A stretch of DNA of 64,000 nt, taken from contig OZ020587.1 in NCBI GenBank assembly GCA_963971535.1, positions 159,601,856 to 159,665,855 on the forward strand, in the 5' to 3' direction. Shown in pieces: positions 17,830-50,850 of this stretch. The notes below the pieces were generated by a model. That model did not search any database, had not been told where the DNA came from, and saw only the letters and a list, made by a program, of their open reading frames with translations. The position numbers were made by a program, and so were the translations under genes. Positions within the stretch are counted from its first letter, which is position 1. Each line of letters begins with the position of its first letter. Source of the stretch: Notolepis coatsorum (Eukaryota; Chordata; Actinopteri; Aulopiformes; Paralepididae).

Positions 17830-18408
<579 letters not shown>

Positions 18409-20978: not shown

Positions 20979-21071
20979 CCTCTCTCTCTCTAGGAACCCA
21001 CTGAGACCAGGTTCTCTCTCTAGGAACTCACTGAGACCAGGTTCTCTCTCTAGGAACTCACTGAGACCAGG
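20979..21071 (-). repeat. Left end of the splice-site minisatellite (3 units)
   Basis: Three units of the same CTAGGAACTCACTGAGACC minisatellite as at 36931-46262, in the same orientation. The outermost has AACCCACTG, as do units near the right end of the array (46161-46200). They lie about 1.0 kb from exon B and mark the original limit of the array before transposon-like repeats entered it. Confidence 0.9.
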
Positions 21072-22858: not shown

Positions 22859-22890
22859 CCTTCTCTCTCTAGGAACTCACTGAGACCAGG
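22859..22890 (-). repeat. Single splice-site minisatellite unit between element copies 1 and 2
   Basis: One unit (TTCTCTCTCTAGGAACTCACTGAGACC...) separating two copies of the GGGCCC-ended element. It has the same phase and orientation as the main array. Confidence 0.9.
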
Positions 22891-24695: not shown

Positions 24696-24730
24696 CCTGG
24701 TTCTCTCTCTAGGAACTCACTGAGACCAGG
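24696..24730 (-). repeat. Single splice-site minisatellite unit between element copies 2 and 3
   Basis: One unit of the donor-derived minisatellite, flanked by ends of the GGGCCC element at the same unit position as in the other copies. Confidence 0.9.
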
Positions 24731-26322: not shown

Positions 26323-26389
26323 CCAGGTTCTCTCTCTAGGAACTCACTGAGACCAGGTTCTCTCTCTCTAGGAACTCACTGAGACCAGG
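26323..26389 (-). repeat. Two splice-site minisatellite units between element copies 3 and 4
   Basis: Two units in the same orientation as the main array. CCAGG occurs on both sides of each element copy nearby, consistent with a 5-bp target duplication within the unit. Confidence 0.9.
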
Positions 26390-26971
26390 GCCCTCATTCA
26401 TCAACGTGTGCGTAGAACATGTTCTATTTCCACACGTAAGCACAGAATTTAGAATGAGTGTACGCACAGGAATATTGGGATTCATCAACCGTGCGTACAC
26501 AGCAGTGGAGGTTTCTCTATGACAACACGTGAAACACAAATTCACTCATAATTCATAATTATTATTAATTTACATATACCTATATATATAAAAAAATAAA
26601 TAAAAAAAATTTATATATATATATTTTTTTAATTATTATTTTTTTTTATTATATAAATGTTTTCCTCTGTAAAAAAAAATGCCAGTGAATTTTTCTTAAA
26701 AAATGGCCAAAATTGACAGCTCTGAGCAGGCCTGCACTGCAGTATTGCCTGCAGTAATTATTCGTGAAGAAAACTTCACAGGTGTGACCCATTGTTAAAT
26801 AAATAATAAATAACAGCTATAGGCTATTAACTTCAAGAACGGTCTGTGCAGTTAAACTATTGCCATTGAATGGAGGATTGATTGATTGACAGCCCTTGAC
26901 ATCCAATACACGGAGGTTGAATATGATTGGCAGCCTTGCAAATCCAATCAGAGATTTCTGCATTGCAAAAT

Positions 26972-27211
26972 CAAAATGGGTCCAGCTGCATGTGAGGATA
27001 GGTTTAGCTCGGGCCAATCTCAAGTTTCTCAAGTTTCTTTATTAGTTGTCATACAGAAGTACAGAATACTTTTATACAAAATGTAACATAAAGAAGCATT
27101 TTGTATAAAAGTATTCTGTACTTCTGTATGACAACTAATAAAGAAACTTGAGAAACTTGAGATTGGCCCGAGCTAAACCTATCCTCCTCACATGCAGCTG
27201 GACCCATTTTG
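26972..27211. repeat. Long near-perfect palindrome (arms 112 and 115 bp, 13-nt loop)
   Basis: Left arm 26972-27083 and right arm 27097-27211 are reverse complements apart from one 3-nt indel (CCTCCTCA against TGAGG side). The loop is TAACATAAAGAAG. The arms contain a LINE-tail-like stretch (CAAGTTTCTTTATTAG, ACAGAATACTTTTATAC) and flanking unique sequence (GGGTCCAGCTGCATGTGAGG), so this is not simply two LINE tails meeting. Confidence 0.95.
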
Positions 27212-27624
27212 ACTATGTGAAAGTTGAGACTATGAGAAAGTTGTTGTTTAGTAGTTAGTAAGCTGTACAGCTATAACAAGTCAGGCTAAATTAAACTTTG
27301 CGCCAACATTAGGACCGAAGTATAAACCAGCAACTGAGCAACATGAAGAAGTGGATTTATGCATCTGGATCAGAAAAAACGTTGTGGATGAAAAAGTAAG
27401 TAGGCTACAGTGCTTGTATGCTAACAGTAGCTAGGCAGCTTAGCCTACATCACAATGATAATCACCAAGCTAACTTACTGTACACACTGTAGGGCTGGGC
27501 AATTAATCGAAACAGAATTGCGATATCGATTCATAGACCTATGCAATCTAATTTCTAAGTTATGACTATTTTCTTTTATTAAAAAAAAACGTTTTTTTTT
27601 TTTTTTTTTTTTTTTATTATTTTA

Positions 27625-27733
27625 TCTGGGTTGAACATGATTTGTGGAACTCCCTCTGGTGTTGTGGTCGTGGTATTCACTGACCTTTGGGAAGTATTTC
27701 GACATGCACATGGGGTGGTGTAGTGTATCTTAA
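27625..27733 (-). mobile_element. LINE A fragment
   Basis: TGGTATTCACTGACCTTTGG and the following bases match the LINE at 9963-10769 (compare about 10120-10230), on the minus strand. It is cut off at about 27733, where the L2 LINE begins. Confidence 0.8.
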
Positions 27734-29420
27734 ACGGGTATTTAATAGTGTTTCAAGCCCTGTGCTAGATATCATAAACACTTCCCTTAGGACTGGTATT
27801 TTCCCGGATGCCTTTAAAACAGCAGTTGTAAAGCCATTACTAAAAAAACCTAACTTGGATAGTAATGAAATGGCAAATTATCGTCCAATATCCAACCTAC
27901 CATTCATTAGTAAAGTACTTGAAAAGATAGTTTCAGTTCAAATAAATTCCTTTCTTGAAGAAAACAACATCTTAGAAGAATTTCAGTCAGGATTCAGAAA
28001 ATATCATAGCACTGAAACTGCCCTCACCAAAATAATCAGTGACCTCAGACTAAACTCTGACGAGAATAAGATCTCCATCCTTATCCTGTTAGATCTCAGT
28101 GCAGCATTTGATACAATCAATCACGATATTCTAATCGATCGTCTTGAAAACCATGTCGGTTTCTCAGACCATGTGCTAGGCTGGTTTAAAACATACATCA
28201 GAGGGAGGAAATTCTATGTTAAACTAGGAGATCACATGTCTGATATATACGACAACAACTATGGAGTTGCACAAGGGAGTTGCTTAGGTCCTTTACTCTT
28301 CTCCCTTTACATGTTACCGCTGGGTGATATCATCAGAGAACATAATGTAGATTTCCATAGCTATGCGGATGATACACAACTGTACATATCTGCTGAACCA
28401 AATGATACAGCGATTAGCTCCATTACAGACTGCTTACTGGCAATAAATAAATGGATGAGTAAGAACTTCCTGAAACTAAACGAGAACAAAACTGAAATTC
28501 TAATTATCGGCTCCAAAACTAAAAAAGAAACATTAATAAAGAACCTGGGGGGACTAACCCCTTGGATCAAATCTGAGGTCACTAGTCTTGGGGTTGTCAT
28601 AGATTCAGAACTGAACTTCAATTCTCATATTAGCAAAGTGACGAAAACATCGTTCTTCCATCTCAGAAATATAGCAAAAGTACGACCATTTATTAATCAG
28701 AACGATGCTGAGAAGCTAATTCATGCATTCATATCTAGCCGGTTAGACTACTGTAATGCACTTTTCACAGGTCTCCCTAAGAAAACCACAGAGAGGCTTC
28801 AGCTAATCCAAAACTCTGCAGCCCGACTGCTAACTAGAACCAAAAGGAGAGAGCACATTAGTCCAGTCTTAGCCGCTTTACACTGGCTTCCTGTAACATT
28901 TAGAATTGACTTTAAGGTCCTTCTCCTTACATACAAAGCTCTAAATGGACAGGGACCTAGCTACATCGCCAACACTCTAATAAATTACACACCAGCAAGA
29001 ACACTGCGATCATCAGCTGCTGGACTACTAGAGGCTCCCAGAAGCAGTCAAAAGAGGATCGGTAATGCAGCCTTTATCAACTATGCCCCAAAACTATGGA
29101 ACAAACTACCCCAAAACATCAGGGAAGCCAACTCGCTAGACATCTTTAAAAGACAGCTTAAAACCTCTCTTTGCTCAGGCATTTCACTGATAGATATCTG
29201 CTACCACCTAGTGGCAAGAGGAAACATCAGGGATATCCTGACACAACTTGTATTTATTCTTACCCTGCCTACTCTTTTACACTGCCTATCAAATTCATGT
29301 GTCGGTTATTGCACTTTTTACTTCTTACTGATGACTATTTTTAAACTGAATCATTTTAAACTATTCTTATTATTTGCTATGCTCGCTCATGCCTGTATTT
29401 TTTTTATGTCCGTCGGTTAG
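27687..29420 (+). CDS. L2-type LINE reverse transcriptase ORF (partial, 577 aa)
   Basis: The L2 protein starts around residue 15; the first residues lie in unrelated sequence. RT motifs in order: LLKKPNLD and NYRPISNL (residues about 50-75), QSGFR-HSTETAL, AFDTINHDIL (about 139), GVAQGSCLGPLLFSLY (about 195) and the catalytic YADDTQLY (about 225). Then come the thumb and the C-terminal region LHWLPV..RIDFKVLLLTYKAL and APKLWNKLP, characteristic of CR1/L2-group LINEs. No stop or frameshift in the RT. The endonuclease domain is missing, so the copy could not move by itself; 5' truncation is usual for LINEs. Confidence 0.88.
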   Translation: MGSISTCTWGGVVYLKRVFNSVSSPVLDIINTSLRTGIFPDAFKTAVVKPLLKKPNLDSNEMANYRPISNLPFISKVLEKIVSVQINSFLEENNILEEFQSGFRKYHSTETALTKIISDLRLNSDENKISILILLDLSAAFDTINHDILIDRLENHVGFSDHVLGWFKTYIRGRKFYVKLGDHMSDIYDNNYGVAQGSCLGPLLFSLYMLPLGDIIREHNVDFHSYADDTQLYISAEPNDTAISSITDCLLAINKWMSKNFLKLNENKTEILIIGSKTKKETLIKNLGGLTPWIKSEVTSLGVVIDSELNFNSHISKVTKTSFFHLRNIAKVRPFINQNDAEKLIHAFISSRLDYCNALFTGLPKKTTERLQLIQNSAARLLTRTKRREHISPVLAALHWLPVTFRIDFKVLLLTYKALNGQGPSYIANTLINYTPARTLRSSAAGLLEAPRSSQKRIGNAAFINYAPKLWNKLPQNIREANSLDIFKRQLKTSLCSGISLIDICYHLVARGNIRDILTQLVFILTLPTLLHCLSNSCVGYCTFYFLLMTIFKLNHFKLFLLFAMLAHACIFFMSVG

Positions 29421-30369
29421 TGCACTTTTTAATTACTGAATAGAGAGCCTATTAGGATGCTAGATCCTAATGTGAAACACTATGCTTATGGCAGATCAAT
29501 CAGCATGGATTGTCTGTAAACTTTAATACATGGCAGTTTGGTTTGTTAGAACAGACTGTAATCTTATGCTTATGGCAGATCAATCAGCATGGATTGTCTG
29601 TAAACATTAATACATGGCAGTTTGGTTTGTTAGAACAGACTGTAATCTTCACTTGAACCAGGTTAACTGTGTCCTGGCTGTAGTAGAACCAGGTTAACTG
29701 TGTCCTGGCTGTTAGTAGAACCAGGTTAACTGTGTCCTGGCTGTAGCATTGTAGAACCAGGTTAACTGTGTCCTGGCTGTAGTAGAACCAGGTTAACTGT
29801 GTCCTGGCTGTTGTAGAACCAGGTTAACTGTGTCCTGGCTGTAGTAGAACCAGGTTAACTGTGTCCTGGCTGTTAGTAGAACCAGGTTAACTGTGTCCTG
29901 GCTGTAGCATTGTGGCATTGTGGCCCACTCCCCACTTCCCTTCTTATATCTATATTGCTTATGGCAGATCAATCAGCATGGATTGTCTGTAAACTTTCAC
30001 TTGCTTATGGCAGATCAATCAGCATGGATTGTCTGTAAACTTTATGCATTGTTGTCACTTGCCATATCTTGCTATGCTCGCTCATGCCTGTATTTTTTAT
30101 GTCCGTTCTATTTTATAATTTTTATTTTATTTTATTTTTATTTTACTATTTTTAAACTGAATCATTTTAAACTATTTTTACTATTTGTGTTACTGAAAAC
30201 TGTAAGCGGAGAGCCTATTGGGATGCTAGATCCTAATGTGAAACACTGTGATTCTACCTGTCTATCTTTTTATGCTCGCTTATGCCTGTATTTTTTACTG
30301 TTGTGAAGCACTTTGAACTGCAACCTCTGTATGAAAAGTGCTATACAAATAAAAAAGTTATTATTATCT
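27734..30369 (+). mobile_element. L2/Maui-type LINE, 5'-truncated, with 3' UTR
   Basis: Non-LTR retrotransposon lacking the endonuclease and the start of ORF2. The reverse transcriptase ORF is followed by a 0.9 kb 3' region with internal duplications (GCTTATGGCAGATCAATCAG motif four times; a minisatellite at 29645-29910). It ends with AAGCACTTTGAACTG... CTATACAAATAAAAAAGTTA, the kind of 3' end typical of fish L2-group elements. Confidence 0.85.
29645..29910 (+). repeat. Minisatellite in LINE 3' UTR (about 8 units)
   Basis: Units of 30-37 bp: AGAACCAGGTTAACTGTGTC followed by CTGGCTGTAGT, with TTAGT or GCATTG variants. They lie within the 3' UTR of the L2 LINE. Confidence 0.9.
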
Positions 30370-30753
30370 TTTATACAACGCCATGCAAATTTCTCGATTC
30401 TGATTGGCCATTTACACGTCTTTATTGGCAACAATCCACGGTCCTGGGCTCAGGACCCGCCCACAACCGAATCACATAATCACTCCGCCGGCTCACTCCG
30501 GGAGAATGTTGATAGCGCCAGAATGTTGATAGCGCCATAAGCCCATAACGACTAAATATGAAGCGATTCTGTCAAGGGGAATGTGTTAGTCCTTTAAACA
30601 ATGTTGGATGATGTAATTGATGGGTCTTGAGTCAATCTAGAACAAAAGAAAAATCGCGGATTGATTGATAGATTAATTGATTGATTTAAATTTCTACTTC
30701 CTTCCCACTGACTGCAGCGTTCACTCTCACACTGTCCGACGCTGGCGTACCCA

Positions 30754-30813
<60 letters not shown>

Positions 30814-31576
30814 CACGCACACACACACACACACTCCTGTCTGCAACAGCGGGGGAGTCAGAGACAGAAGCAGCGCTGTTTTAAGTGAGCATGGTCTATT
30901 GAATTGATTGATTGGTTGATTGCTAATTTTATTACTGTACAACTGGTTTCCAACTGGTTAAGTTTAGGCTAAAAGAAATAAATAAAAAAATAGGGCGAAG
31001 AAAACGTTTTTTTTCCTATAGGGCAAATAAAACCTTTTAATTTGTTTTACCTACTTTATATAGAAGCATCTAAGAATGAAGTTCTATGGAAAGTAGGTCT
31101 GCATTCCCTTAACAATTGTGTGTATTGAGCCGTACTGTATTGTACCCATTCTGCATCTGGTAATAACATTTTCAATCAATCATTCCAATAATACACAGTT
31201 GGATGTGTTAGTTGGTTGGATGCACTTCAAGCTGCTTCCACATGAGGCAACTTCTCTCAATCATTCCAATAATACACAGTTGGATGTGTTAGTTTGGTTG
31301 GATGCACTTCAAGCTGCTTCCACATGGAGGCAACTTGTCTTTTTTGTAGTTGTGGGAACTACTTTTTCTGGCGGATGGTTTTTTCAATAAATCTTTGATT
31401 AATGTGTGTTTATTGTATAGAAATAAGGTTGGATGAATCTGGCAGTTGTATAAAAGCTTTACACCACTTGCAGTCGTGATTTGTGACCAATAAACCATGC
31501 CTAGGGGGGTCTAACGACCACCCCTAGGCATGGTTTATTGGTCACAAACCACTCCTGCGCGTGATGTAATGCTTAA
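30370..31576 (+). repeat. Composite repeat X, compact copy
   Basis: Starts TTTTATACAACGCCATGCAA and ends GTGATGTAATGCTTAA. It contains, in order: a unique start, a CA microsatellite block (30756-30833), a TTTACCTACTTTATATAGAAG segment, a plus-strand LINE A tail (31105-31180), a 74-bp duplication (31183-31335) and a hairpin (31454-31575). The same order is found, split by large insertions, at 994-2308, 9425-9552, 10788-10934 and 15449-15772. Near its two ends TTTTATACAAC and GTTGTATAAAAG are inverted. Confidence 0.85.
30756..30833 (+). repeat. CA microsatellite
   Basis: (AC)n with two GC interruptions. The His- and Cys/Val-repeat reading frames across it are artefacts. Confidence 0.95.
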
Positions 31577-31957
31577 GTAGACCAGGCCCATTGCAAGTTG
31601 CTGTACTCTGTCGTCTACTCTAAGCCATCCTAGGTTGTCAAAGTGGACAGGGGTGAGGTGGGTTTTAGGAGTAAGGTCAAGCAGTAGTCTGACCAGTTTG
31701 TTTTGTGATGTTTGTAATCTTGTTTTTAGTGCCTTTGAGGTGCTTTGGTACCATGAGGTGCAAGCATAGTCGTAGTACCCTTGAATGAGTGCTCCTGTTA
31801 GAGTCTTCAAGGTATTCTTGTTTACCAGAGAGGAGATCCGGTACAGGAATCTAGTTCGTTGGTTGACTTAGTTTTATTACATTGGATCCCATTTTGTCAC
31901 AGGAAAGATTTGCCTCTATAGGATGGAACCCAGGTAGGTAATTTCATCTTTCCTTTT
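31577..31957 (-). mobile_element. LINE A internal fragment
   Basis: Encodes on the minus strand TLTGALIQGYYDYACTSWYQ, as in the LINE at 9963-10769 (SWYQSTSKALKT, NLGWLRVDDRVQQLAMGLVY). Both ends are cut; it lacks the 3' tail. Confidence 0.85.
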
Positions 31958-32310
31958 AAGATAAGATAAGATATTCCTTTATTGATCCCCTTGGGGAAAT
32001 TCAGGCATCATAGCAGCATGGGGGAAGGGGGGTACAGGTAGTGAAAACAACACAAGCAGTGTAAACAAATAGGTCAATATAATTTACTATCTAACTAACT
32101 GAAATATACATTATTCATTATTCACAGTATCACAGTATCACAGTATCCACATAAGGTGCAGTATGCATAAGGTAGTGTTATTGTCCTACTTGGGTTCCTA
32201 TTAGTTCTAGGTTGATGTCTGGCAGCAGTCGCTGCCCACTGTTGTGGAGCCTGATGGCCACTGGTATGAAGGACTGTCCGAGGCGGTTAGTTGAGTGTCG
32301 GGGGGGTATG
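31958..32310 (-). mobile_element. LINE 3'-end fragment with AAGAT tail
   Basis: On the minus strand it ends GGGGATCAATAAAGGAATAT followed by CTTAT repeats, a common 3' end of fish CR1-group LINEs. The upstream part (CCTTCATACCAGTGGCCATC) is the end of an RT reading frame. Confidence 0.65.
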
Positions 32311-32613
32311 AGTCTGTGGCTTCCTTGTCACCTTCACCTAATATGTTTTGATCTGGTCAGGTGCGCTGTCACCTAAAATGTTTTGATCTGATCAGGTGCG
32401 CTGTCACCTAATATGATTTCATCTGGTCAGGTGCGCTGTCACCTAATATGTTTTCATCTGGTCAGGTCCGCTGTCACCTAATGTTAATATGTTTTCATCT
32501 GTGTCCACTGACCACTGACACACAGTGGGGGATGTTTTAAAAATATTATTTAATATATAATATAATATAATAATTTGTGCTTCACCTAAAAATTTGGTCA
32601 GCAGCCTCCACTG
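32311..32613. repeat. Short tandem repeat and hAT end
   Basis: Four to five copies of a roughly 38-bp unit with CACCTAATATGTTTTCATCTGG and GTCAGGTGCGCTGT (32332-32495), then AT-rich sequence leading to the CCTCCACTG end. Confidence 0.7.
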
Positions 32614-32968
32614 GTACACAGGTCCTATGCTCCTCCGTGTTGATGAATACCACTTTGTTCTACCGTCAATGCTCGTGCATGATTATCCATATATGGTCAT
32701 GAAAGTGAGGAAACACCCCCCATGGGATGTGAAATAATGGACTGACCCGAGCGGAACTCTGAGAAGCTTCACGGAGATTTTTCACTGCTGTCGAACCAAG
32801 AAGACACAACGCGCGTGTTTATGGGATAAATAAAAGGCAGACTTGTAAACGGTGATGTCAGATATCAACGGCTCCCTAAGACCATTGCTGCAATTCTGCC
32901 TGGACAGCTCAAAATACTAATAAAGACCGTTCGTTGACCTCTGTTTGGCGTTGGTTGTGTGTCATTAT

Positions 32969-35427
32969 CAGTGATGCCACAGATTACTTGTAAAAGTAAT
33001 CCGATTACTGATTACTGATTACTCCTTTAAAAAGTAATCCAAGTTACTTTACTGATTACTTGATTATCAGAGTAACTTAGTTACTTTGAAAGTAACTAGG
33101 TTACGAAGTTGTCGTCGTTCCCCCAACAGTTTTTTTTAAAACGCTTTATTGAAAGTGCATAAATTGTTTTTAACTTGTTTCTCTGCACATAACATAAATT
33201 GTTAAACTAGTGCTTCAGCTTCTGTACCATCAAGTATGGTAAAGCAACAGTCTATGATGCTCACAGCATTAGAGCAGCCAGCCAGTGGTTTTACAAAACC
33301 AGTGTATCCATTCACATCTAACAAATGCAGGCTGAACTATTCAATTATATCAACTGTAACTATTAAATTGTTTTTATAAATGTCTCTCTATAAACATACA
33401 ATCAGTCTCTCTTTAACATGTAAATTAACTGTAAATCTGGCAAATAAGAGCTTTTGCTCTGCCACCATCAAATATACATTAATCAATAGGGAAAGAAACA
33501 ATCTCTCTCTTTTGCTGTTTGGCTGGCCTCCGAGTCCTCCTGTACCTAGTCGAAGCGTCGTAGTGTTGTCATTCCAGATGCTTTCAATGCAATTGGATGT
33601 GCTGTTTTTAGCGGTAGACAGTATTTACGTTTAGGTCGCTTTCACATATAGTTTTGGTGGACTCGGTGCGGTTCTGGGGGTGAAGTTGCAACATTGTTGC
33701 ATTCTTCATTTGGTTCGCCTGCTTTCACACAGAGGCGGACCGAGACCTTCTGAACAATGTCACGCGGTCGAAAAGGGCGCTTGTCTATTGGACAGTGGAA
33801 ATGTGTGTGTGGCTGCTGCGATCCCGTGTGTGCGTGTGTAACGGAGGTACCGCAGTATATCCACAGTCACGGGCACAAGTAGTGACGTGGCTGTGGATGG
33901 TAAGCGGTACTGCAAGTAAACTCACTCCCCAGAGGCATCCAGACCCGGAAGCAAGAAGTGAATTCACTTCTTGCTTAGTGGTCTGTGATGCCGCCCGCGA
34001 CGCCGGCGTCCGGGGTTCAACTCCCACTCAGGGCGATCCCTTAACAGGGGTCGAATCGACTAAAACACAACGCAGACAAGATCACACCGGCTACATGTGG
34101 TGCCGTTAGACCCGGATGCCCTGGGTGGTGTGAGTTTAGTGGGGTGAGTGTAACGGAGGTACCGCAGTATATCCACAGTCACGGGCACAAGTAGTGACGT
34201 GGCTGTGGATGGTAAGCGGTACTGCAAGTAAACTCACTCCCCAGAGGCATCCAGACCCGGAAGCAAGAAGTGAATTCACTTCTTGCTTAGTGGTCTGTGA
34301 TGCCGCCCGCGACGCCGGCGTCCGGGGTTCAACTCCCACTCAGGGCGATCCCTTAACAGGGGTCGAATCGACTAAAACACAACGCAGACAAGATCACACC
34401 GGCTACATGTGGTGCCGTTAGACCCGGATGCCCTGGGTGGTGTGAGTTTAGTGGGGTGAGTGTAACGGAGGTACCGCAGTATATCCACAGTCACGGGCAC
34501 AAGTAGTGACGTGGCTGTGGATGGTAAGCGGTACTGCAAGTAAACTCACTCCCCAGAGGCATCCAGACCCGGAAGCAAGAAGTGAATTCACTTCTTGCTT
34601 AGTGGTCTGTGATGCCGCCCGCGACGCCGGCGTCCGGGGTTCAACTCCCACTCAGGGCGATCCCTTAACAGGGGTCGAATCGACTAAAACACAACGCAGA
34701 CAAGATCACACCGGCTACACGTGCGCGCGTGTGTGTGTGTCTGCGTGTGTACTGCGGAGCCCTTCAGATCAGCGGAGCCGAGTTTTGACATGGCATTGAT
34801 CCATTGTTCTATTGAAGCACATTACCACCATCCTCTCGCTAAACAACTTGTAGACCACGGTGTTTTTATGAGTGCCCACAAGTAGCTGTTTTAATAATAT
34901 AATAAGCCGCGCGCCTCGGTAATAATAATAAGCCGCGTTTTTTCTTCCTGTAAGCGTTTTGGGGTGGAATTCTCAGACGAATGCAACGGAGCCCTGCTGT
35001 CACACGATTGGCGCATATGTCACATGACGTGCTGTGAAGACCCGCCATACTCTGCCTCTGATTCGCAGACTGTGGATGGGGAATGTGATTGGGCCAAAGC
35101 AGAGTCACTCACAGACAGAGAGTCCAGTCACGCCGCGGGACACATTCTTGTGTAACCCTTTCACTGCCACACCACGTCACTCCCAAATAAGAAAAACAGC
35201 TAAAAAATGTATTTTTGACTGTCGAAAACGAAATAAAATACTGCATTCCGCCTGCATTATGAATTTATGATGAGATAGTAACGAAATAGTAACGCACAGC
35301 CACTTGGACAAGTAACTGCAATCAGATTACTGGCTTTTAAAGATTAACGCGTTAGATTACTATTTTCGGGGAAAAGTAATCAGATTACAATAACGCGTTA
35401 CTTAGTAACGCGTTACCGGCATCACTG
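32969..35427. mobile_element. hAT-type non-autonomous element with GTCATTAT target duplication
   Basis: Ends CAGTGATGCC and GGCATCACTG, flanked by GTCATTAT on both sides (32961-32968, 35428-35435). Copies 2 and 3 of the host repeat have the single uninterrupted site, confirming the 8-bp duplication. The subterminal regions are rich in AGTAATC/GATTACT and AACGCGTTAC motifs. No transposase ORF. Three tandem SINE-like units lie inside (33838-34722). Confidence 0.85.
33838..34722 (+). repeat. Three tandem copies of a 312-bp tRNA-derived SINE-like unit
   Basis: Units start GTAACGGAGGTACCGCAG at 33838, 34150 and 34462; the third stops early. The copies are almost identical. Each contains an A-box-like TTGCTTAGTGGTC and a B-box-like GGGGTTCAACTCCC about 45 bp apart, the layout of a tRNA-derived Pol III promoter. 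Just upstream is a perfect 28-bp palindrome centred on GAATTC (first copy 33949-33976). The ORFs on both strands in this stretch are by-products of the repetition. Confidence 0.75.
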
Positions 35428-35481
35428 GTCATTATAACCGTGCTGTAATATGAATGCCTTTATTAGTTGTGTTCGATTGGC

Positions 35482-35556
35482 TATATGATTTTTAGAGGCA
35501 TCTATTTTGTTGTCGGTATTACCGACAACAAAATAGATGCCTCTAAAAATCATATA
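35482..35556. repeat. Perfect 36-bp inverted repeat with 3-nt spacer
   Basis: Left arm 35482-35517 and right arm 35521-35556 are exact reverse complements, separated by ATT. The arm (ending GTTGTCGGT) occurs once in copies 1-3 of the host repeat, so the second arm arose locally in copy 4. Confidence 0.95.
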
Positions 35557-36930
35557 CTATTAGGTAGCCTATATGAATTACATATAATAGCAGCCATAGC
35601 CTACATTATGCAACAGTAACTTGCGCATACCAGTGTATGCGACGGACCAGTGTATACCTTGTATCATATCATATTCATATAATAGTTTACTCTATCAGCA
35701 TACCAGCATGTAATATGTTCTTTGTTAGAACTCAACTCGTTCGACAGGCTGACAGACGTGTACACTTACGGTGATGTCGGATATGATATCTATTAACCAT
35801 TGCTGCCTGGGCAGCGCAAACACAAAGACCGCGCTGGAATATGACTGCCTTTTCCCGTGTTGTTTGATTAATACCCAGGGATTAAAGTTCTCCTCAATTT
35901 TATTCCAAATCGCGATGGATCTTCCGTCAATTTTCTACCTGCTGCATATGATTTCTAGAGGCATACTACAATCTATTTTGATGTCAGTATTGGGTAGCCT
36001 ATATAAACAATAATACGAGAGCATATACAAGAACAATGAATCTCACTGCATGTATGATGTAGCCTGCCTTTCAATACATGAACTTGAATTCCATCACGTT
36101 TGTGTGCGGGACTCACAAGGCTGTTGTCACAATGGGTGGTACCGGTACAGTAATAATAACAGTCCACACAATATCACGATGGACCATGCCATCCCATAGC
36201 CTATGTTCTATTAGGACATGATCTGTGACGACAAATGTTCTAGAATGTTTGATTAAGATATCATACTCTGACAGCATGCCTATGATCAACAAAAACGCGA
36301 ACTTGAATCCCATCATATACATAGTCTGTCCACTATCTGGTGTCATTGCAATGCGTTTTCTATTCTTTCTTATGCAGTAAAAAGGGGGAAGAACACTATA
36401 TCGTGGGTGTTCATATGACTCTGCTTACAGCTTCGAAACTCCACTTGTTTCGTTTAACGTAAAGCCTTTTAAATATAATCAAAACGTTCCTGTGTTTCTG
36501 CGGTCTGTGCGCAAAATAATAACGAGTTGAGATACGCGGAGCGCAGTCAGTCAGTAGCCTACACCCCGTATATTCCGATAACGCTATATAAACCATGCTG
36601 CATTCATTCTGAGAGAAAGATCTATTATTCCAAATGCTATTTATAGGGTTTTGACCATAATTACACTACTGTTGCTATTTTACAATGAACTATAATGAAT
36701 TACGGTTCATACAGAACATGTCAGTGTTATTATGCACAGAAGCTCATTTCCTTGTTGTAATAATATATTCTACCACTGGGCGTCAGCTAAGTGTGGTCCG
36801 AGCTGTGCGTACACATAAGCACAAAGTCAAGTTCAAGTTGAAATTGATGAATCCCACTCTTTGCTTAGAAATGATCGTACGCACAGGGTAAGCACAAATC
36901 TGTGCGTAAGACACGTTGATGAATGAGGGC

Positions 36931-39900
36931 CCAGGTTCTTTCTCTAGGAACTCACTGAGGTCAGGTTCTCTCTCTAGGAACTCACTGAGACCATGTTCTC
37001 TCTCTAGGAACTCACTGAGACCAGGTTCTCTCTCTCTAGGAACTCACTGAGACCAGGTTCTCTCTCTAGGAACTCAATGAGACCAGGTTCTCTCTCTCTA
37101 GGAACTCACTGAGACCAGGTTCTCTCTCTCTAGGAACTCACTGAGACCAGGTTCTCTCTCTAGGAACTCACGAGACCAGGTTCTCTCTCTAGGAACTCAC
37201 GAGACCAGGTTCTCTCTCTCTAGGAACTCACTGAGACCAGGTTCTCTATCTAGGAACTCACTGAGACCAGGTTCTCTCTCTCTAGGAACTCACTGAGACC
37301 AGGTTCTCTCTCTAGGAACTCACTGAGACCAGATTCTCTCTCTCTAGGAACTCACTGAGACCAGGTTCTCTCTCTAGGAACTCACTGAGACCAGGTTCTC
37401 TCTCTCTAGGAACTCACTGAGACCAGGTTCTCTCTCTCTAGGAACTCACTGAGACCAGGTTCTCTCTCTAGGAACTCACTGAGACCAGGTTCTCTCTCTC
37501 TAGGAACTCACTGAGACCAGGTTATCTCTCTCTAGGAACTCACTGAGACCAGGTTCTCTCTCTAGGAACTCACTGAGACCAGGTTCTCTCTCTAGGAACT
37601 CACTGAGGTCAGGTTCTCTCTCTCTAGGAACTCACTGAGACCAGGTTCTCTCTCTAGGAACTCACGAGACCAGGTTCTCTCTCTCTAGGAACTCACTGAG
37701 GTCAGGTTCTCTCTCTAGGAACTCACTGAGACCAGGTTCTCTCTCTCTAGGAACTCACTGAGACCAGGTTCTCTCTCTAGGAACTCACGAGACCAGGTTC
37801 TCTCTCTAGGAACTCACTGAGACCAGGTTCTCTCTCTCTAGGAACTCACTGAGACCAGGTTCTCTCTCTCTAGGAACTGACTGAGGTCAGGTTCTCTCTC
37901 TAGGAACTCACTGAGACCAGGTTCTCTCTCTCTAGGAACTCACTGAGACCAGGTTCTCTCTCTAGGAACTCACGAGACCAGGTTCTCTCTCTAGGAACTC
38001 ACTGAGACCAGGTTCTCTCTCTCTAGGAACTCACTGAGACCAGGTTCTCTCTCTAGGAACTCACTGAGACCAGGTTCTCTCTCTCTAGGAACTCACTGAG
38101 ACCAGGTTTTCTCTCTAGGAACTCACTGAGACCAGGTTCTCTCTCTAGGAACTCACTGAGACCAGGTTGTCTCTCTAGGAACTCACTGAGACCAGGTTCT
38201 CTCTCTCTAGGAACTCGCTGAGACCAGGTTCTCTCTCTCTAGGAACTCACTGAGACCAGGTTCTCTCTCTAGGAACTCACTGAGACCAGGTTCTCTCTCT
38301 AGGAACTCACTGAGACCAGGTTCTCTCTCTCTAGGAACTCACTGAGACCAGGTTCTCTCTCTCTAGGAACTCACTGAGACCAGGTTCTCTCTCTAGGAAC
38401 TCACTGAGACCAGGTTCTCTCTCTAGGAACTCACTGAGACCAGGTTCTCTCTCTCTAGGAACTCATTGAGACCAGGTTCTCTCTCTAGGAACTCACTGAG
38501 ACCAGGTTCTCTCTCTCTAGGAACTCACTGAGACCAGGTTCTCTCTCTAGGAACTCACTGAGACCAGGTTCTCTCTCTCTAGGAACTCACTGAGACCAGG
38601 TTCTCTCTCTCTAGGAACTAACTGAGACCAGGTTCTCTCTCTCTCTAGGAACTCACTGAGACCAGGTTCTCTCTCTAGGAACTCACTGAGACCAGGTTCT
38701 CTCTCTCTAGGAACTCACTGAGACCAGGTTCTCTCTCTAGGAACTCACTGAGACCAGGTTCTCTTTCTAGGAACTCACTGAGACCAGGTTCTCTCTCTCT
38801 AGGAACTCACTGAGACCAGGTTCTCTCTCTAGGAACTCACTGAGACCAGGTTCTCTCTCTAGGAACTCACTGAGACCAGGTTCTCTCTCTCTAGGAACTC
38901 ACTGAAACCAGGTTCTCTCTCTAGGAACTCACTGAAACCAGGTTCTCTCTCTAGGAACTCACTGAGGTCAGGTTCTCTCTCTAGGAACTCACTGAGACCA
39001 GGTTCTCTCTCTAGGAACTCACTGAGACCAGGTTCTATATCTAGGAACTCACTGAGACCAGGTTCTCTCTCTCTAGGAACTCACTGAGACCAGGTTCTCT
39101 CTCTAGGAACTCACTGAGACCAGGTTCTCTCTCTCTAGGAACTCACTGAGACCAGGTTCTCTCTCTAGGAACTCACTGAGACCAGGTTCTCTCTCTAGGA
39201 ACTCACTGAGACCAGGTTCTCTCTCTAGGAACTCACTGAGACCAGGTTCTCTCTCTCTAGGAACTCACTGAGACCAGGTTCTCTCTCTCTAGGAAATCAC
39301 TGAGACCAGGTTCTCTCTCTCTAGGAACTCACTGAGACCAGGTTATCTCTCTAGGAACTCACTGAGACCAGGTTCTCTCTCTAGGAACTCACTGAGACCA
39401 GGTTCTCTCTCTAGGAACTCACCGAGACCAGATTCTCTCTCTCTAGGAACTCACTGAGACCAGGTTCTCTCTCTCTAGGAACTCACTGAGACCAGGTTCT
39501 CTCTCTCTAGGAACTCACTGAGACCAGGTTCTCTCTCTCTAGGAACTCACTGAGACCAGGTTCTCTCTCTAGGAACTCACTGAGACCAGGTTCTCTCTCT
39601 CTAGAAACTCACTGAGGTCAGGTTCTCTCTCTAGGAACTCACTGAGGTCAGGTTCTCTCTCTAGGAACTCACTGAGACCAGGTTCTCTCTCTAGAAACTC
39701 ACTGAGACCAGGTTCTCTCTCTAGGAACTCACTGAGACCAGGTTCTCTCTCTAGGAACTCACTGAGACCAGGTTCTCTCTCTAGGAACTCACTGAGACCA
39801 GGTTCTCTCTCTAGGAACTCACTGAGACCAGGTTCTCTCTCTAGGAACTCACTGAGACCAGGTTCTCTCTCTCTCTCTAGGAACTCACTGAGACCAGGTT

Positions 39901-42900
39901 CTCTCTCTAGGAACTCACTGAGGTCAGGTTCTCTCTCTCTAGGAACTCACTGAGGTCAGGTTCTCTCTCTCTAGGAACTCACTGAGACCAGGTTCTCTCT
40001 CTAGGAACTCACTGAGACCAGGTTCTCTCTCTAGGAACTCACTGAGACCAGGTTCTCTCTCTCTAGGAACTCACTGAGACCAGGTTCTCTCTCTAGGAAC
40101 TCACTGAGACCAGGTTCTCTCTCTCTAGGAACTCACTGAGACCAGGTTCTCTCTCTAGGAACTCACTGAGACCAGGTTCTCTCTCTCTAGGAACTCACTG
40201 AGACCAGGTTCTCTCTCTAGGAACTCACTGAGACCAGGTTCTCTCTCTAGGAACTCACTGAGACCAGGTTCTCTCTCTAGGAACTCACTGAGACCAGGTT
40301 CTCTCTCTAGGAACTCACTGAGACCAGGTTCTCTCTCTCTAGGAACTCACTGAGACCAGGTTCTCTCTCTAGGAACTCACTGAGACCAGGTTCTCTCTCT
40401 AGGAACTCACTGAGACCAGGTTCTCTCTCTCTAGGAACTCACTGAGACCAGGTTCTCTCTCTCTAGGAACTCACTGAGATCAGGTGCTCTCTCTAGGAAC
40501 TCACTGAAACCAGGTTCTCTCTCTCTAGGAACTCACTGAGACCAGGTTCTCTCTCTCTCTAGGAACTCACTGAGACCAGGTTCTCTCTCTAGGAACTCAC
40601 TGGGGTCAGGTTCTCTCTCTAAGAACTCACTGAAACCAGGTTCTCTCTCTCTAGGAACTCACTGAGACCAGGTTCTCTCTCTCTAGGAACTCACTGAGAC
40701 CAGGTTCTCTCTCTAGGAACTCACTGAGGTCAGGTTCTCTCTCTAGGAACTCACTGAGACCAGGTTCTCTCTCTCTAGGAACTCACTGAGACCAGGTTCT
40801 CTCTCTCTAGGAACTCACTGAGACCAGGTTCTCTCTCTAGGAACTCACTGAGACCAGGTTCTCTCTCTCTCTAGGAACTCACTGAGACCAGGTTCTTTCT
40901 CTAGGAACTCACTGAGACCAGGTTCTCTCTCTCTAGGAACTCACTGAGACCAGGTTCTCTCTCTCTAGGAACTCACTGAGACCAGGTTCTCTCTCTCTAG
41001 GAACTCACTGAGACCAGGTTCTCTCTCTAGGAACTCACTGAGACCAGGTTCTCTCTCTCTAGGAACTCACTGAGACCAGGTTCTCTCTCTCTAGGAACTC
41101 ACTGAGACCAGGTTCTCTCTCTAGGAACTCAATGAGACCAGGTTCTCTCTCTAGGAACTCACCGAGACCAGGTGCTCTCTCTAGGAACTCACTGAGACCA
41201 GGTTCTCTCTCTCTAGGAACTCACTGAGGTCAGGTTCTCTCTCTAGGAACTCACTGAGACCAGGTTCTCTCTCTCTAGGAACTCACTGAGACCAGGTTCT
41301 CTCTCTCTAGGAACTCACTGAGACCAGGTTCTCTCTCTAGGAACTCACTGAGACCAGGTTCTCTCTCTCTAGGAACTCACTGAGACCAGGTTCTTTCTCT
41401 AGGAACTCACTGAGACCAGGTTCTCTCTCTCTAGGAACTCACTGAGACCAGGTTCTCTCTCTCTAGGAACTCACTGAGACCAGGTTCTCTCTCTCTAGGA
41501 ACTCACTGAGACCAGGTTCTCTCTCTAGGAACTCACTGAGACCAGGTTCTCTCTCTCTAGGAACTCACTGAGACCAGGTTCTCTCTCTCTAGGAACTCAC
41601 TGAGACCAGGTTCTCTCTCTAGGAACTCAATGAGACCAGGTTCTCTCTCTAGGAACTCACCGAGACCAGGTGCTCTCTCTAGGAACTCACTGAGACCAGG
41701 TTCTCTCTCTCTAGGAACTCACTGAGACCAGGTTCTCTCTCTCTAGGAACTCACTGAGACCAGGTTCTCTCTCTCTAGGAACTCACTGAGACCAGGTTCT
41801 CTCTCTCTCTAGGAACTCACTGAGACCAGGTTCTCTATCTAGGAACTCACTGAGACCAGGTTCTCTCTCTCTAGGAACTCACTGAGACCAGGTTCTCTCT
41901 CTAGGAACTCACTGAGACCAGGTTCTCTCTCTCTAGGAACTCACTGAGACCAGGTTATCTCTCTCTAGGAACTCACTGAGACCAGGTTCTCTCTCTAGGA
42001 ACTCACTGAGACCAGGTTCTCTCTCTAGGAACTCACTGAGACCAGGTTCTCTCTCTAAGAACTCACTGAGACCAGGTTCTCTCTCTAGGAACTCACTGAG
42101 ACCAGGTTCTCTCTCTAGGAACTCACTGAGACCAGGTTCTCTCTAGGAACTCACTGAGACCAGGTTCTCTCTCTAGGAACTCACTGAGACCAGGTTCTCT
42201 CTCTAGGAACTCACTGAGACCAGGTTCTCTCTCTCTAGGAACTCACTGAGACCAGGTTCTCTCTCTAGGAACTCACTGAGACCAGGTTCTCTCTCTCTAG
42301 GAACTCACTGAGACCAGGTTCTCTCTCTCTCTAGGAACTCACTGAGACCAGGTTCTCTCTCTAGGAACTCACTGAGACCAGGTTCTCTCTCTAGGAACTC
42401 ACTGAGACCAGGTTCTCTCTCTAGGAACTCACTGAGGTCAGGTTCTCTCTCTAGGAACTCACTGAGACCAGGTTCTCTCTCTCTAGGAACTCACTGAGAC
42501 CAGGTTCTCTCTCTAGGAACTCACTGAGACCAGGTTCTCTCTCTCTAGGAACTCACTGAGACCAGGTTCTCTCTCTAGGAACTCACTGATACCAGGTTCT
42601 CTCTCTAGGAACTCACTGAGACCAGGTTCTCTCTCTGGGAACTCACTGAGACCAGGTTCTCTCTCTAGGAACTCACTGAGACCAGGTTCTCTCTCTCTAG
42701 GAACTCACTGAGACCAGGTTCTCTCTCTAGGAACTCACTGAGACCAGGTTCTCTCTCTAGGAACTCACTGAGGTCAGGTTCTCTCTCTAGGAACTCACTG
42801 AGACCAGGTTCTCTCTCTCTAGGAACTCACTGAGACCAGGTTCTCTCTCTCTAGGAACTCACTGAGACCAGGTTCTCTCTCTAGGAACTCACTGAGACCA

Positions 42901-45900
42901 GGTTCTCTCTCTCTAGGAACTCACTGAGACCAGGTTCTCTCTCTAGGAACTCACTGAGACCAGGTTCTCTCTCTCTAGGAACTCACTGAGACCAGGTTCT
43001 CTCTCTCTCTAGGAACTCACTGAGACCAGGTTCTCTCTCTAGGAACTCACTGAGACCAGGTTCTCTCTCTCTAGGAACTCACTGAGACCAGGTTCTCTCT
43101 CTAGGAACTCACTGAGACCAGGTTCTCTCTCTCTAGGAACTCACTGAGACCAGGTTCTCTCTCTCTAGGAACTCACTGAGACCAGGTTCTCTCTCTAGGA
43201 ACTCACTGAGACCAGGTTCTCTCTCTAGGAACTAACTGAGACCAGGTTCTCTCTCTCTAGGAACTCACTGAGACCAGGTTCTCTCTCTCTAGGAACTCAC
43301 TGAGACCAGGTTCTCTCTCTAGGAACTCACTGAGACCAGGTTCTCTCTCTCTAGGAACTCACTGAGACCAGGTTCTCTCTCTCTAGGAACTCACTGAGAC
43401 CAGGTTCTCTCTCTAGGAACTCACTGAGACCAGGTTCTCTCTCTAGGAACTCACTGAGACCAGGTTCTCTCTCTCTAGGAACTCACTGAGACCAGGTTAT
43501 CTCTCTCTAGGAACTCACTGAGACCAGGTTCTCTCTCTAGGAACTCACTGAGACCAGGTTCTCTCTCTAGGAACTCACTGAGACCAGGTTCTCTCTCTAA
43601 GAACTCACTGAGACCAGGTTCTCTCTCTAGGAACTCACTGAGACCAGGTTCTCTCTCTAGGAACTCACTGAGACCAGGTTCTCTCTAGGAACTCACTGAG
43701 ACCAGGTTCTCTCTCTAGGAACTCACTGAGACCAGGTTCTCTCTCTAGGAACTCACTGAGACCAGGTTCTCTCTCTCTAGGAACTCACTGAGACCAGGTT
43801 CTCTCTCTAGGAACTCACTGAGACCAGGTTCTCTCTCTCTAGGAACTCACTGAGACCAGGTTCTCTCTCTCTCTAGGAACTCACTGAGACCAGGTTCTCT
43901 CTCTAGGAACTCACTGAGACCAGGTTCTCTCTCTAGGAACTCACTGAGACCAGGTTCTCTCTCTAGGAACTCACTGAGGTCAGGTTCTCTCTCTAGGAAC
44001 TCACTGAGACCAGGTTCTCTCTCTCTAGGAACTCACTGAGACCAGGTTCTCTCTCTAGGAACTCACTGAGACCAGGTTCTCTCTCTCTAGGAACTCACTG
44101 AGACCAGGTTCTCTCTCTAGGAACTCACTGATACCAGGTTCTCTCTCTAGGAACTCACTGAGACCAGGTTCTCTCTCTGGGAACTCACTGAGACCAGGTT
44201 CTCTCTCTAGGAACTCACTGAGACCAGGTTCTCTCTCTCTAGGAACTCACTGAGACCAGGTTCTCTCTCTAGGAACTCACTGAGACCAGGTTCTCTCTCT
44301 AGGAACTCACTGAGGTCAGGTTCTCTCTCTAGGAACTCACTGAGACCAGGTTCTCTCTCTAGGAACTCACTGAGACCAGGTTCTCTCTCTCTAGGAACTC
44401 ACTGAGACCAGGTTCTCTCTCTCTAGGAACTCACTGAGACCAGGTTCTCTCTCTAGGAACTCACTGAGACCAGGTTCTCTCTCTCTAGGAACTCACTGAG
44501 ACCAGGTTCTCTCTCTAGGAACTCACTGAGACCAGGTTCTCTCTCTCTAGGAACTCACTGAGATCAGGTTCTCTCTCTCTCTAGGAACTCACTGAGACCA
44601 GGTTCTCTCTCTAGGAACTCACTGAGACCAGGTTCTCTCTCTCTAGGAACTCACTGAGACCAGGTTCTCTCTCTAGGAACTCACTGAGACCAGGTTCTCT
44701 CTCTCTAGGAACTCACTGAGACCAGGTTCTCTCTCTCTAGGAACTCACTGAGACCAGGTTCTCTCTCTAGGAACTCACTGAGACCAGGTTCTCTCTCTAG
44801 GAACTCACTGAGACCAGGTTCTCTCTCTAGGAACTCACTGAGACCAGGTTCTCTCTCTAGGAACTCACTGAGACCAGGTTATCTCTCTCTAGGAACTCAC
44901 TGAGACCAGGTTCTCTCTCTAGGAACTCACTGAGACCAGGTTCTCTCTCTAGGAACTCACTGAGACCAGGTTCTCTCTCTAGGAACTAACTGAGACCAGG
45001 TTCTCTCTCTCTAGGAACTCACTGAGACCAGGTTCTCTCTCTCTAGGAACTCACTGAGACCAGGTTCTCTCTCTAGGAACTCACTGAGACCAGGTTCTCT
45101 CTCTCTAGGAACTCACTGAGACCAGGTTCTCTCTCTCTAGGAACTCACTGAGACCAGGTTCTCTCTCTAGGAACTCACTGAGACCAGGTTCTCTCTCTAG
45201 GAACTCACTGAGACCAGGTTCTCTCTCTCTAGGAACTCACTGAGCTCAGGTTCTCTCTCTAGGAACTCACTGAGGTCAGGTTCTCTCTCTCTAGGAACTC
45301 ACTGAGACCAGGTTCTCTCTCTAGGAACTCACTGAGACCAGGTTATCTCTCTAGGAACTCACTGAGACCAGGTTCTCTCTCTCTAGGAACTCACTGAGAC
45401 CAGGTTCTCTCTCTAGGAACTCACTGAGACCAGGTTCTCTCTCTAGGAACTCACCGAGACCAGGTTCTCTCTCTAGGAACTCACTGAGACCAGGTTCTCT
45501 CTCTAGGAACTCACTGAGACCAGGTTCTCTCTCTCTAGGAACTCACTGAGACCAGGTTCTCTCTCTAGGAACTCACTGAGACCAGGTTCTCTCTCTCTAG
45601 GAACTCACTGAGACCAGGTTCTCTCTCTAGGAACTCACTGAGACCAGGTTCTCTCTCTAGGAACTCACTGAGACCAGGTTCTCTCTCTCTAGGAACTCAC
45701 TGAGACCAGGTTCTCTCTCTAGGAACTCACTGAGGTCAGGTTCTCTCTCTAGGAACTCACTGAGACCAGGTTCTCTCTCTCTAGGAACTCACTGAGACCA
45801 GGTTCTCTCTCTCTAGGAACTCACTGAGACCAGGTTCTCTCTCTCTAGGAACTCACTGAGACCAGGTTCTCTCTCTAGGAACTCACTGAGACCAGGTTCT

Positions 45901-46262
45901 CTCTCTAGGAACTCACTGAGACCAGGTTCTCTCTCTCTAGGAACTCACTGAGACCAGGTTCTCTCTCACTAGGAACTCACTGAGACCAGGTTCTCTCTCT
46001 CTAGGAACTCACTGAGACCAGGTTCTCTCTCTCTAGGAACTCACTGAGACCAGGTTCTCTCTCTAGGAACTCACTGAGACCAGGTTCTCTCTCTCTAGGA
46101 ACTCACTGAGACCAGGTTCTCTCTCTCTAGGAACTCACTGAGACCAGGTTCTCTCTCTAGGAACCCACTGAGACCAGGTTCTCTCTCTAGGAACCCACTG
46201 AGACCAGGTTATCTCTCTCTAGGAACTCACTGAGACCAGGTTCTCTCTCTCTAGGAACTCAC
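36931..46262 (-). repeat. Giant minisatellite built from the exon A 5' splice site (about 300 units)
   Basis: 9.3 kb of uninterrupted 30- or 32-bp units. On the plus strand each reads CTAGGAACTCACTGAGACC followed by AGGTTCTCTCT; the length varies by one or two CT steps. On the minus strand, the sense of the carrier gene, each unit is the end of exon A (GAACCTGGTCTCA) followed by GTGAGTTCCTAG, that is, the authentic exon/intron junction. The first unit is the real junction at 46263. Common variants are GAGGTC for GAGACC, TCACGAGACC (CT lost), CCGAG and GGTGCT; almost all keep GTGAGT. Any downstream unit used as donor would add V-S-S and an in-frame TAG. No coding potential of its own. Confidence 0.97.
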
Positions 46263-46409
46263 TGAGACCAGGTTCTCCTCCACGAAGGTGGTCAGCATGT
46301 GGTGCCTGATGGTGGACATGATGTCGCTGAAGTCCAGCGAGGTGATGGCTCCGCTCTTGTTCTTGTCCTTCACGGCGAAGGCCTGGCGGATGTGCTCCGA
46401 CTGCAGCTC
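46263..46409 (-). CDS. slc25a13: Exon A of aspartate/glutamate mitochondrial carrier, EF-hand exon (citrin-like)
   Basis: A 147-nt, 49-codon phase-0 exon. It encodes an EF-hand (loop [12 protein letters not shown], with D, N, S, T and D at usual liganding positions) followed by [13 protein letters not shown] and ends VEENLVS. This is the SLC25A13 pattern; aralar1 has a different residue set here. Acceptor: CTCTCCACAG before GAGCTGCAG. Donor: GGTCTCA then GTGAGT. Joining to exon B gives ENLVS-AAGGS, as expected for the family. The last 15 exon bases and the first intron bases are identical to the unit of the huge downstream minisatellite, and the polypyrimidine tract before the exon is part of the unit of the upstream minisatellite. 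The preceding exons were not found. Confidence 0.88.
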
Positions 46410-46419
46410 CTGTGGAGAG

Positions 46420-47255
46420 ACAGAGGGGGGAGGAGTCAAGGCCTGGGCCACACTGACAGAGGGGGGAGGAGTCAAGGCCTGGGCCACACTGACAGAGGGG
46501 GGAGGAGTCAAGGCCTGGGCCACACTGACAGAGGGGGAAGGAGTCAAGGCCTAGGCCACACTGACAGAGGGGGGAGGAGGGGGAGGAGTCAAGGCCTGGG
46601 CCACACTGACAGGGGGGAGGAGTCAAGGCCTGGGCCACACTGACAGAGGGGGGAGGAGTCAAGGCCTGGGCCACACTGACAGAGGGGGGGAGGAGTCAAG
46701 GCCTGGGCCACACTGACAGAGGGGGGAGGAGTCAAGGCCTGGGCCACACTGACAGAGGGGGGAGGAGTCAAGGCCTGGGCCACACTGACAGAGGGGGAGG
46801 AGTCAAGGCCTGGGCCACACTGACAGAGGGGGGAGGAGTCAAGGCCTGGGCCACACTGACAGAGGGGGGAGGAGTCAAGGCCTGGGCCACACTGACAGAG
46901 GGGGGAGGAGTCAAGGCCTGGGCCACACTGACAGGGGGGGGAGGAGTCAAGGCCTGAGCCACACTGACAGAGGGGGGAGGAGTCAAGGCCTGAGCAACAC
47001 TGACAGGGGGGAGGAGTCAAGGCCTGAGCCACACTGACAGAGGGGGGAGGAGTCAAGGCCTGAGCAACACTGACAGGGGGGAGGAGTCGAGGCCTGAGCC
47101 ACACAGACAGAGGGGGAGGAGTCAAGGCCTGAGCCACACTGACAGAGGGGAGGAGTCAAGGCCTGGGCCCACGACAAGGCTCCGTTCACACTGACAGAGG
47201 GGGGAGGAGTCAAGGCCTGATACCACGACAAGGCTCAGTTCACACTGACAGAGTT
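46420..47255 (-). repeat. Minisatellite built from the exon A polypyrimidine tract (about 22 units)
   Basis: About 22 units of 34-38 bp. On the minus strand each unit contains CCTTGACTCCTCC, a C/T-rich run and TCTGTCAGTGTGGCCCAGG. The unit nearest exon A (46410-46440) runs directly into TCTCCACAG, the real acceptor, so the array is a tandem expansion of the acceptor's polypyrimidine tract. Each copy keeps TTGAC (fits a YTNAY branch-point consensus), a pyrimidine run of about 17 nt and a CAG, so each resembles a 3' splice site. Proline-rich reading frames across it are artefacts of the repeat. Confidence 0.93.
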
Positions 47256-49949: not shown

Positions 49950-50850
49950 TTCAAGTTCAAGTTTCAAGTTTGTTTATTGTCATAGTATAATACAGAATAC
50001 TTTATCATGAAATGCTTTTTTCTGTATGAGCCCCTGGGAGTGTGCTAGATAAAAAGTATAAAATAGAAAAAGTACGTAAAATAAAGTGTTCAGTCAATAT
50101 ACATATATACAATATACAATACAGAGTAAAAAGAGTAACAGTGAGGTACAATGCAGAAATGGGATGAGGTACAAACTTAGGGTAAGGTGCAAATGAGGTA
50201 TGAATTGTAGTGCAAATAACTTTACTAATAAATATAAAGTGTGTTAAAGTGTCTAGGGCTGTCCCCGACTAAGGATTTGGATAGTCGACTTTGATTGGCC
50301 AAAATTAGCCGATAGTCGAATATGAAATATTTTTTTTAAACAAAAAAAGTATAATATATATATATATTTTTTTTATGTTTTTATCATTCCATTTGGGCTG
50401 TGGGGGGTGCTTAATGTCTGAAGGAGTCGACGGAAGGCTTCTTGTCCTCTGCAAAAGCATGCAATTGGTCCACTGATGGATACATCTTGATATTTGTGAA
50501 ATCCTCTTTCAGTGCCTCTGTGCCTGTTTTCTTAGGCAGTTAGCCTCGCTGGTATGCGCGCCATTAGCGTTAGCCACGCATCTAGACCTCTTTTCTTTTG
50601 GAAAGAATGATACAAATTTTATTTTTTATTTTTTGCAGTCGACTACGGCTCCTTTCGATCGATTAGTTGACTATTCGACTCATAGGGGTCAGCCCTAGTC
50701 TAAAGTGAGTAAAGTGGGTGCTACAGTGAGTTGTTTATTTAAAGTGAGTGTGGATGTGTGTGCTGTGAGTGTAGATGATGGGTTGTTACATAGTGTCATT
50801 GTCATTGAGCAATCCTGATGGCCCTGGGGATAGAAGCTCTGATCTGAGTA
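49950..50850 (-). mobile_element. LINE 3' tail fragment split by a MITE
   Basis: 49950-50252 and 50699-50850 together match 47256-47690 (CAGAATACTTTATCATGAAA, CATAGTGTCATTGTCATTGA). Interrupted by the element at 50253-50698. Confidence 0.75.
50253..50698. mobile_element. 446-bp MITE with CTAGGGCTG ends
   Basis: Perfect 9-bp terminal inverted repeat CTAGGGCTG..CAGCCCTAG with inner GACTATTCGACT/GGATAGTCGACT motifs, of the type found in hAT-related MITEs. The left end also occurs alone at 54081-54123. Confidence 0.75.

Follow-up and report, generated by a model that had tools for sequence, protein, structure and literature searches.

Copies of splice donors and candidate acceptor modules on either side of an EF-hand exon in a fish SLC25A12/aralar1-type gene

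The closest described relative of a natural splice donor array is found in human ABCA7, where intron 18 holds a VNTR of 25 bp units that ranges from 12 to about 427 units and reaches up to 10.7 kb (PMC5954066). As this source describes it, the exon 18 donor supplies the GT with which the VNTR opens, every unit provides a further donor, and use of the second donor breaks the frame (PMC5954066). Three novel isoforms are reported: one uses a cryptic exon 18 acceptor (14 +/- 6%), one retains a single unit (2 +/- 1%) and one lacks exon 19 (12-45%, depending on the tissue), and only the share of the last increased with VNTR length (PMC5954066). In human IFI6 (6-16), two downstream units of an array give rise to three mRNA species (Turri et al., 1995, as related in PMC4526556). 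Tandem donors have also been engineered: five minigenes carrying a pair of identical donors used the upstream donor exclusively, and weakening of both donors led to skipping of the larger exons (Carranza et al., 2022; PMC9225289).

Here, we describe a native gene in which one exon, exon A, is flanked by hundreds of donors on one side and about 20 acceptor modules on the other, the copies of each kind being nearly identical. It lies in a window of 64,000 nt, the whole stretch of Notolepis coatsorum DNA that was analysed. The donor array belongs to the kind described for ABCA7 and IFI6, as a tandem array starts across the working donor and has a donor in each unit. Like the ABCA7 VNTR it is a minisatellite directly at the donor of an exon, with hundreds of units and a broken frame upon use of a later donor (PMC5954066), like the IFI6 array, whose units serve as alternative splice donors, it holds donors in its units (PMC4526556), and like the minigenes it presents identical tandem donors after one acceptor (PMC9225289). 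Unlike the ABCA7 unit, which starts at the GT, the unit here also contains 15 coding bases, a variation within the described kind. The acceptor side is an array as well, whereas PMC5954066 describes the donor side only and the account of IFI6 in PMC4526556 mentions no acceptor array. The minigenes have two engineered donors, flanking introns of 365 nt and no competing acceptors (PMC9225289), in contrast to some 300 natural donors here, and length variation and isoforms have been measured for ABCA7 (PMC5954066), whereas the present array is known from one sequence.

An earlier note on this DNA knew of no described case with both sides amplified. The donor side has precedents in ABCA7 and IFI6. 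No double-sided case and no array of complete acceptors was found in the open-access literature (among the titles and starts of abstracts listed, mostly without subscription papers, which makes this weak evidence of absence). "Array of complete acceptors" is a descriptive class coined here, and no named family for it was found. The same note regarded the locus as a natural experiment in splice-site competition, which is supported. Splicing models disagree at this point, proximity across the exon predicting clean use of the innermost pair and concurrent occupancy of sites predicting inhibition and leakage. A leak would be easily read, because the length of the product reveals the unit used, and it would also destroy the frame. 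If confirmed, the locus extends the ABCA7 kind of donor minisatellite beyond humans and shows that its unit can absorb coding bases.

Host gene and exons

The 147-nt EF-hand exon that had been recognized before is confirmed. Its 49 codons are open, and it joins exons B and C, which were located by tblastn with an aralar1 probe, in frame and with no stops (Table 1). The intron between exons A and B measures 26,295 nt. As tblastn with the aralar1 probe gave no convincing exon from exon A rightward to the end of the window, an upstream intron of more than 17 kb is probable. The gene had been called citrin-like, which needs correction: among solved structures the query of exons A, B and C found aralar1 (4p5x) first (197 bits, 4.9e-58), ahead of 4p5w (175 bits, 3.3e-51), with a chain labelled Aralar2, which we take to be citrin. 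A protein search returned 742 proteins, and in the best 120 of these 742, which were listed, most of the names displayed refer to fish SLC25A12/Aralar1. By its sequence, the host gene of exon A is of the fish SLC25A12/aralar1 type. An open frame and consensus splice sites are present in exons A, B and C, the exons on which the integrity of the gene was judged, the remaining ones being beyond the window or not found.

Of the 120 listed homologues, 117 contain a ten-residue peptide, and the three that did not match this pattern were dropped from further comparison (n = 117). Residues absent from all 117 number three in exon A, three in exon B and none in exon C, in a comparison where near-duplicates among the 117 lower the private counts of those homologues themselves. 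The private residues in exons A and B perhaps stem from faster evolution of this copy or from a remote lineage. The protein with the top score, P0002 (Coryphaenoides), was ruled out as the source gene (104/127 identical, model partly duplicated).

Table 1. Exons, arrays and insertions at the locus (positions in the window; a slash in a sequence marks the cut).
Feature	Position	Strand	Description
Exon A	46263-46409	minus	147 nt, open, EF-hand region; ELQSEH...FVEENLVS; ends VS/
Exon B	19829-19967	minus	139 nt; AAGGSTSH...VTK; acceptor TTCCTCCAG/GCT; donor AAG/GTACTG
Exon C	17374-17467	minus	94 nt; EEFIHAANKFGQ...; acceptor TTCCCACAG/AGG; donor TGG/GTAATT
Acceptor minisatellite	46410-47244	minus	22 units, most of 36 nt; outermost pair 54 and 52 nt
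Donor minisatellite	36931-46277	minus	302 units from donor G, most of them 30 or 32 nt long
Two donor units	26328-26388	minus	separated from main array by inserted element
One donor unit	24700-24729	minus	one inserted element on either side
One donor unit	22860-22889	minus	one inserted element on either side
Three donor units	20983-21071	minus	far end of array
Insertion 1 in donor array	21072-22859		
Insertion 2 in donor array	22890-24699		
Insertion 3 in donor array	24730-26327		
Insertion 4 in donor array	26389-36930		largest

Anatomy and origin of the two arrays

The donor unit consists of the last 15 bases of exon A and the first 15-17 bases of the intron, and the array reaches 15 nt into the exon. 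The 302 units, counted from the donor G and including the working donor, are of 43 types, among them a plain 30-mer (GTGAGTTCCTAGAGAGAGAACCTGGTCTCA, n = 117) and a 32-mer with one extra GA (n = 102). Exact matches to TCAGTGAGT number 280 and those to GAGAACCTGGTCTCAGTGAGTTCCTAGAGA 232, while the GT is intact in 297/302 units and GTGAGT in 290/302. This copy number is not due to chance, since GTGAGT occurs only 18 times on the plus and 19 times on the minus strand of the window outside the main array. Among 11 arrays picked by eye from 69 TRF rows, a control set that includes the donor and acceptor arrays themselves, the donor array alone has GTRAGT in nearly every unit (290); a 312-bp control array has three on the sense and four on the opposite strand. 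Seven outlying units lie beyond 36931, down to 20983, and the original array therefore had at least 309 units. The earlier count of about 300 tandem copies of the exon end and 5' splice site is thus borne out. Past 20983 the unit sequence gives way to ordinary intron-like sequence, probably native intron, 1015 nt from exon B. On its plus strand the main donor array is also rich in acceptor-like tracts (TTCTCTCTCTCTAG/GAAC), with 553 matches to a pattern from a pyrimidine run to YAG. The exact donor 30-mer had no match in viral contigs, a collection that may omit records close to that of the window.

The array derives from the exon rather than the exon from the array, as the unit is made of the exon's last 15 bases plus the donor and the peptide occurs in nearly all the listed homologues. 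For the order of events we infer that the exon end (GGAGGAGAACC) and the intron start (TAGAGAGAG), which share a short GA-rich match, permitted a duplication of the junction, which would then have expanded to its full number of units within a formerly much shorter intron. Units close to the exon are more uniform, with 0.23 changes per unit, than distant ones, with 0.41 (Spearman p 0.005, 301 units), a gradient that persists when recent block copies are removed (260 units, p 0.006) and when columns 25-26 are ignored (p 0.003).

All copy numbers are taken from the assembly, in which a real but shorter array might have been lengthened. A block of 30 units and 916 nt at 43424-44340 equals 41882-42798 unit for unit, 50 units apart, whereas in 200 shuffles of the unit order the longest repeated block was 7.7 units on average and 13 at most. 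Either the block was duplicated recently or the assembly is in error here; block duplication is normal in minisatellites. The 43 unit types, the divergence gradient and the four element insertions inside the array argue against an inflated or misassembled copy number, which we consider quite improbable.

On the other side of exon A, CCTTGAC is present in 21/22 units, an end in CTGTCAG in 20/22 and both in 19/22, the exceptions being one unit without CCTTGAC, one with CTGTCTG and one that is the true acceptor. The branch-point consensus is YNYTRAY, which CCTTGAC fits, and the distance from the A of this motif to the next AG is 17-28 nt. A branch-point-like motif, a C/T tract and a CAG are combined in 19/22 units. 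The units appear to be whole candidate acceptor modules, more than the polypyrimidine tracts as which they had been noted, although their number of about 22 stands. The loose pattern from a branch-like motif to YAG, found 20 and 18 times on the two strands of this array, is not specific, since it also occurs 9 and 10 times in a minisatellite at 18399-19069.

The exon-proximal acceptor unit leads into the true acceptor site TCTCCACAG/GAG, which is not itself repeated; the last unit ends about 10 nt before it, so that the decoys do not repeat the AG of the true site. The suggestion that the exon-proximal units are the functional sites themselves is supported for the donor, as exon B starts where a cut at TCA/GTGAGT must join in frame. 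By eye, the inner acceptor units look more alike than the outer ones. The sequence at the outer boundary of the array recurs at 49954-50252 (77% alike) and is perhaps a mobile element. The acceptor array would have a separate origin, from a unit in which an AG and a C/T tract were already joined to a motif resembling a branch point.

Choice of splice sites and the cost of a wrong one

We favour, with a probability of about 0.7, the reading that two minisatellites lie beside exon A, that the donor one has grown in place, that the innermost sites are selected and that the decoys drift. Only the innermost pair makes protein, since any later donor leads into ...LVS VSS stop (GTG AGT TCC TAG) ahead of the second donor, and since the 21 upstream CTGTCAG decoys (20 unit ends and one at the outer edge of the acceptor array) either shift the frame (15) or are in frame and meet a stop (all 6), with phase 0 at the start of exon A assumed from homologues and CTGTCAG AGs alone considered. 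A slip to another copy would break the frame and, as we infer, expose the mRNA to nonsense-mediated decay. With long introns on both sides, the exon would be defined by the acceptor and donor that are mutually closest, i.e., the innermost copies, which would explain how the gene survives, with the other copies mostly ignored. The choice had been described as one out of hundreds, which overstates it: exons of up to 250, 300, 400 and 500 nt would result from 1, 2, 6 and 9 exact TCAGTGAGT donors, weaker variants being left out of the count, and from 2, 4, 6 and 9 acceptors.

Published work on competing sites bears on this choice in both directions. Where human exons are flanked by long introns and their competing donors are of near-equal strength, the upstream donor, which is the nearest to the acceptor across the exon, is favoured (PMC9225289), and because the donors here are identical this equal-strength rule applies and picks the innermost donor. 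Without the equal-strength filter the downstream donor is favoured in all four architecture classes, and for the acceptors of long-intron exons the preference for the upstream (outer) site is weakened, with no reversal in the LL class, which makes the acceptor side the less certain half as far as this source describes it (PMC9225289). Two alternative donors may both be bound though one is used (PMC5861446), and two acceptors can be occupied simultaneously, which inhibits splicing and would make the arrays harmful (PMC5389562). Counting against the favoured reading are the unfiltered preference for downstream donors, the acceptor preference that is weakened but not reversed, and the concurrent acceptors, together with the middling strength of the donor TCAGTGAGT (5.3 of 12.6 by a scoring matrix) and one count of mutations inside GTGAGT that is given below.

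If the nearest decoys were often used, the arrays would be a standing poison, and many transcripts would carry extra units or an upstream acceptor and be degraded. The decoy sites are identical or nearly so, the exons of 179 nt and 190 nt that the first donor-side and the first upstream acceptor decoy would make are normal in size, IFI6 transcripts employ two downstream repeat units as donors (PMC4526556), and simultaneous binding of two acceptors is possible (PMC5389562). However, identical minigene donors were resolved to the upstream one (PMC9225289), one-unit retention in ABCA7 concerns 2 +/- 1% of transcripts (PMC5954066), and there is no sign of decoy purging, all of which speak against frequent decoy use, a decidedly unlikely state of this gene.

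Among 301 units, no selection that keeps or purges decoy donors is seen. Distinct changes inside GTGAGT are 7/30 versus 6.0 expected (301 units). Run-collapsed events are 11/85 versus 17 expected over all columns (p 0.13), a hint at most of constraint, and 11/52 versus 11.1 without the variable hotspot columns 25-26. GTGAGT is intact in 146/150 inner and 143/151 outer units (p 0.38). The weaker GTGGGT is found in the third and fourth units from the exon and nowhere else in the main array; from the 11 core events about 0.15 would be expected in the first four units, and no claim is made on these two. The same counts bear on the proposal that selection maintains the donor array as a binding platform, for U1 (e.g., against premature polyadenylation of a long intron) or for SR proteins on the GA tracts. 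GTGAGT is retained in nearly all units, as such a function would have it, but no better than the rest of the unit, and the intron is long mainly through the array and the elements inserted in it. Binding arrays for U1 or for U2AF/PTB, as the earlier note proposed, have no support from the sequence, and a donor array kept for binding is extremely unlikely.

The innermost sites might also be used while the length of the array alters skipping of exon A or B or the mRNA level, and hence dosage. Such an effect is modelled on ABCA7, where skipping of the next exon increases with the VNTR and one-unit retention does not (PMC5954066), and skipping of exon B would shift the frame, as it is 139 nt long. 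By analogy with a single human gene this length effect is conceivable but unlikely. That both arrays jointly tune the inclusion of exon A, with array length setting the level of the mitochondrial aspartate/glutamate carrier in a double-sided natural rheostat, seems very doubtful.

RNA structure as the selector was rejected, the accessibility of the first donor being 1.6e-4 and the mean of 50 array donors 1.6e-4. The donor array folds less than its own shuffles (z +3.9). Pairing between the two arrays was likewise rejected (-162.1 versus -166.2 +/- 8.0 in 100 shuffles).

Insertions and other repeats in the window

The four insertions in the donor array have like ends, GGCCCTCAT(T/G)CATCAACG paired with its exact or nearly exact reverse complement, and all hit the same point of the donor unit, after GAGACCAG (after CAG). 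Their right flank begins with CAG (two) or CTG (one), which resembles a 3-base target duplication. Presumably they belong to a PIF/Harbinger-like family. The largest insertion also contains a second LINE-like ORF, recognized by eye (27687-29420, plus strand). A LINE reverse transcriptase is encoded by the ORF at 57025-59199 (plus strand), as supported by homologues with PF00078, and 82% over 73% of the query is the highest identity among the matches listed. The long retroelement ORFs at 3514-4941 and 60954-63998 (both minus strand) appear by eye to be Ty3-like and BEL/Pao-like. The minisatellite at 18399-19069, in the intron between exons B and C, has 9.8 copies of a 69-bp unit, makes no contact with an exon and contains acceptor-like motifs (CCTCCTGCTCTGCAG) in most of its units.
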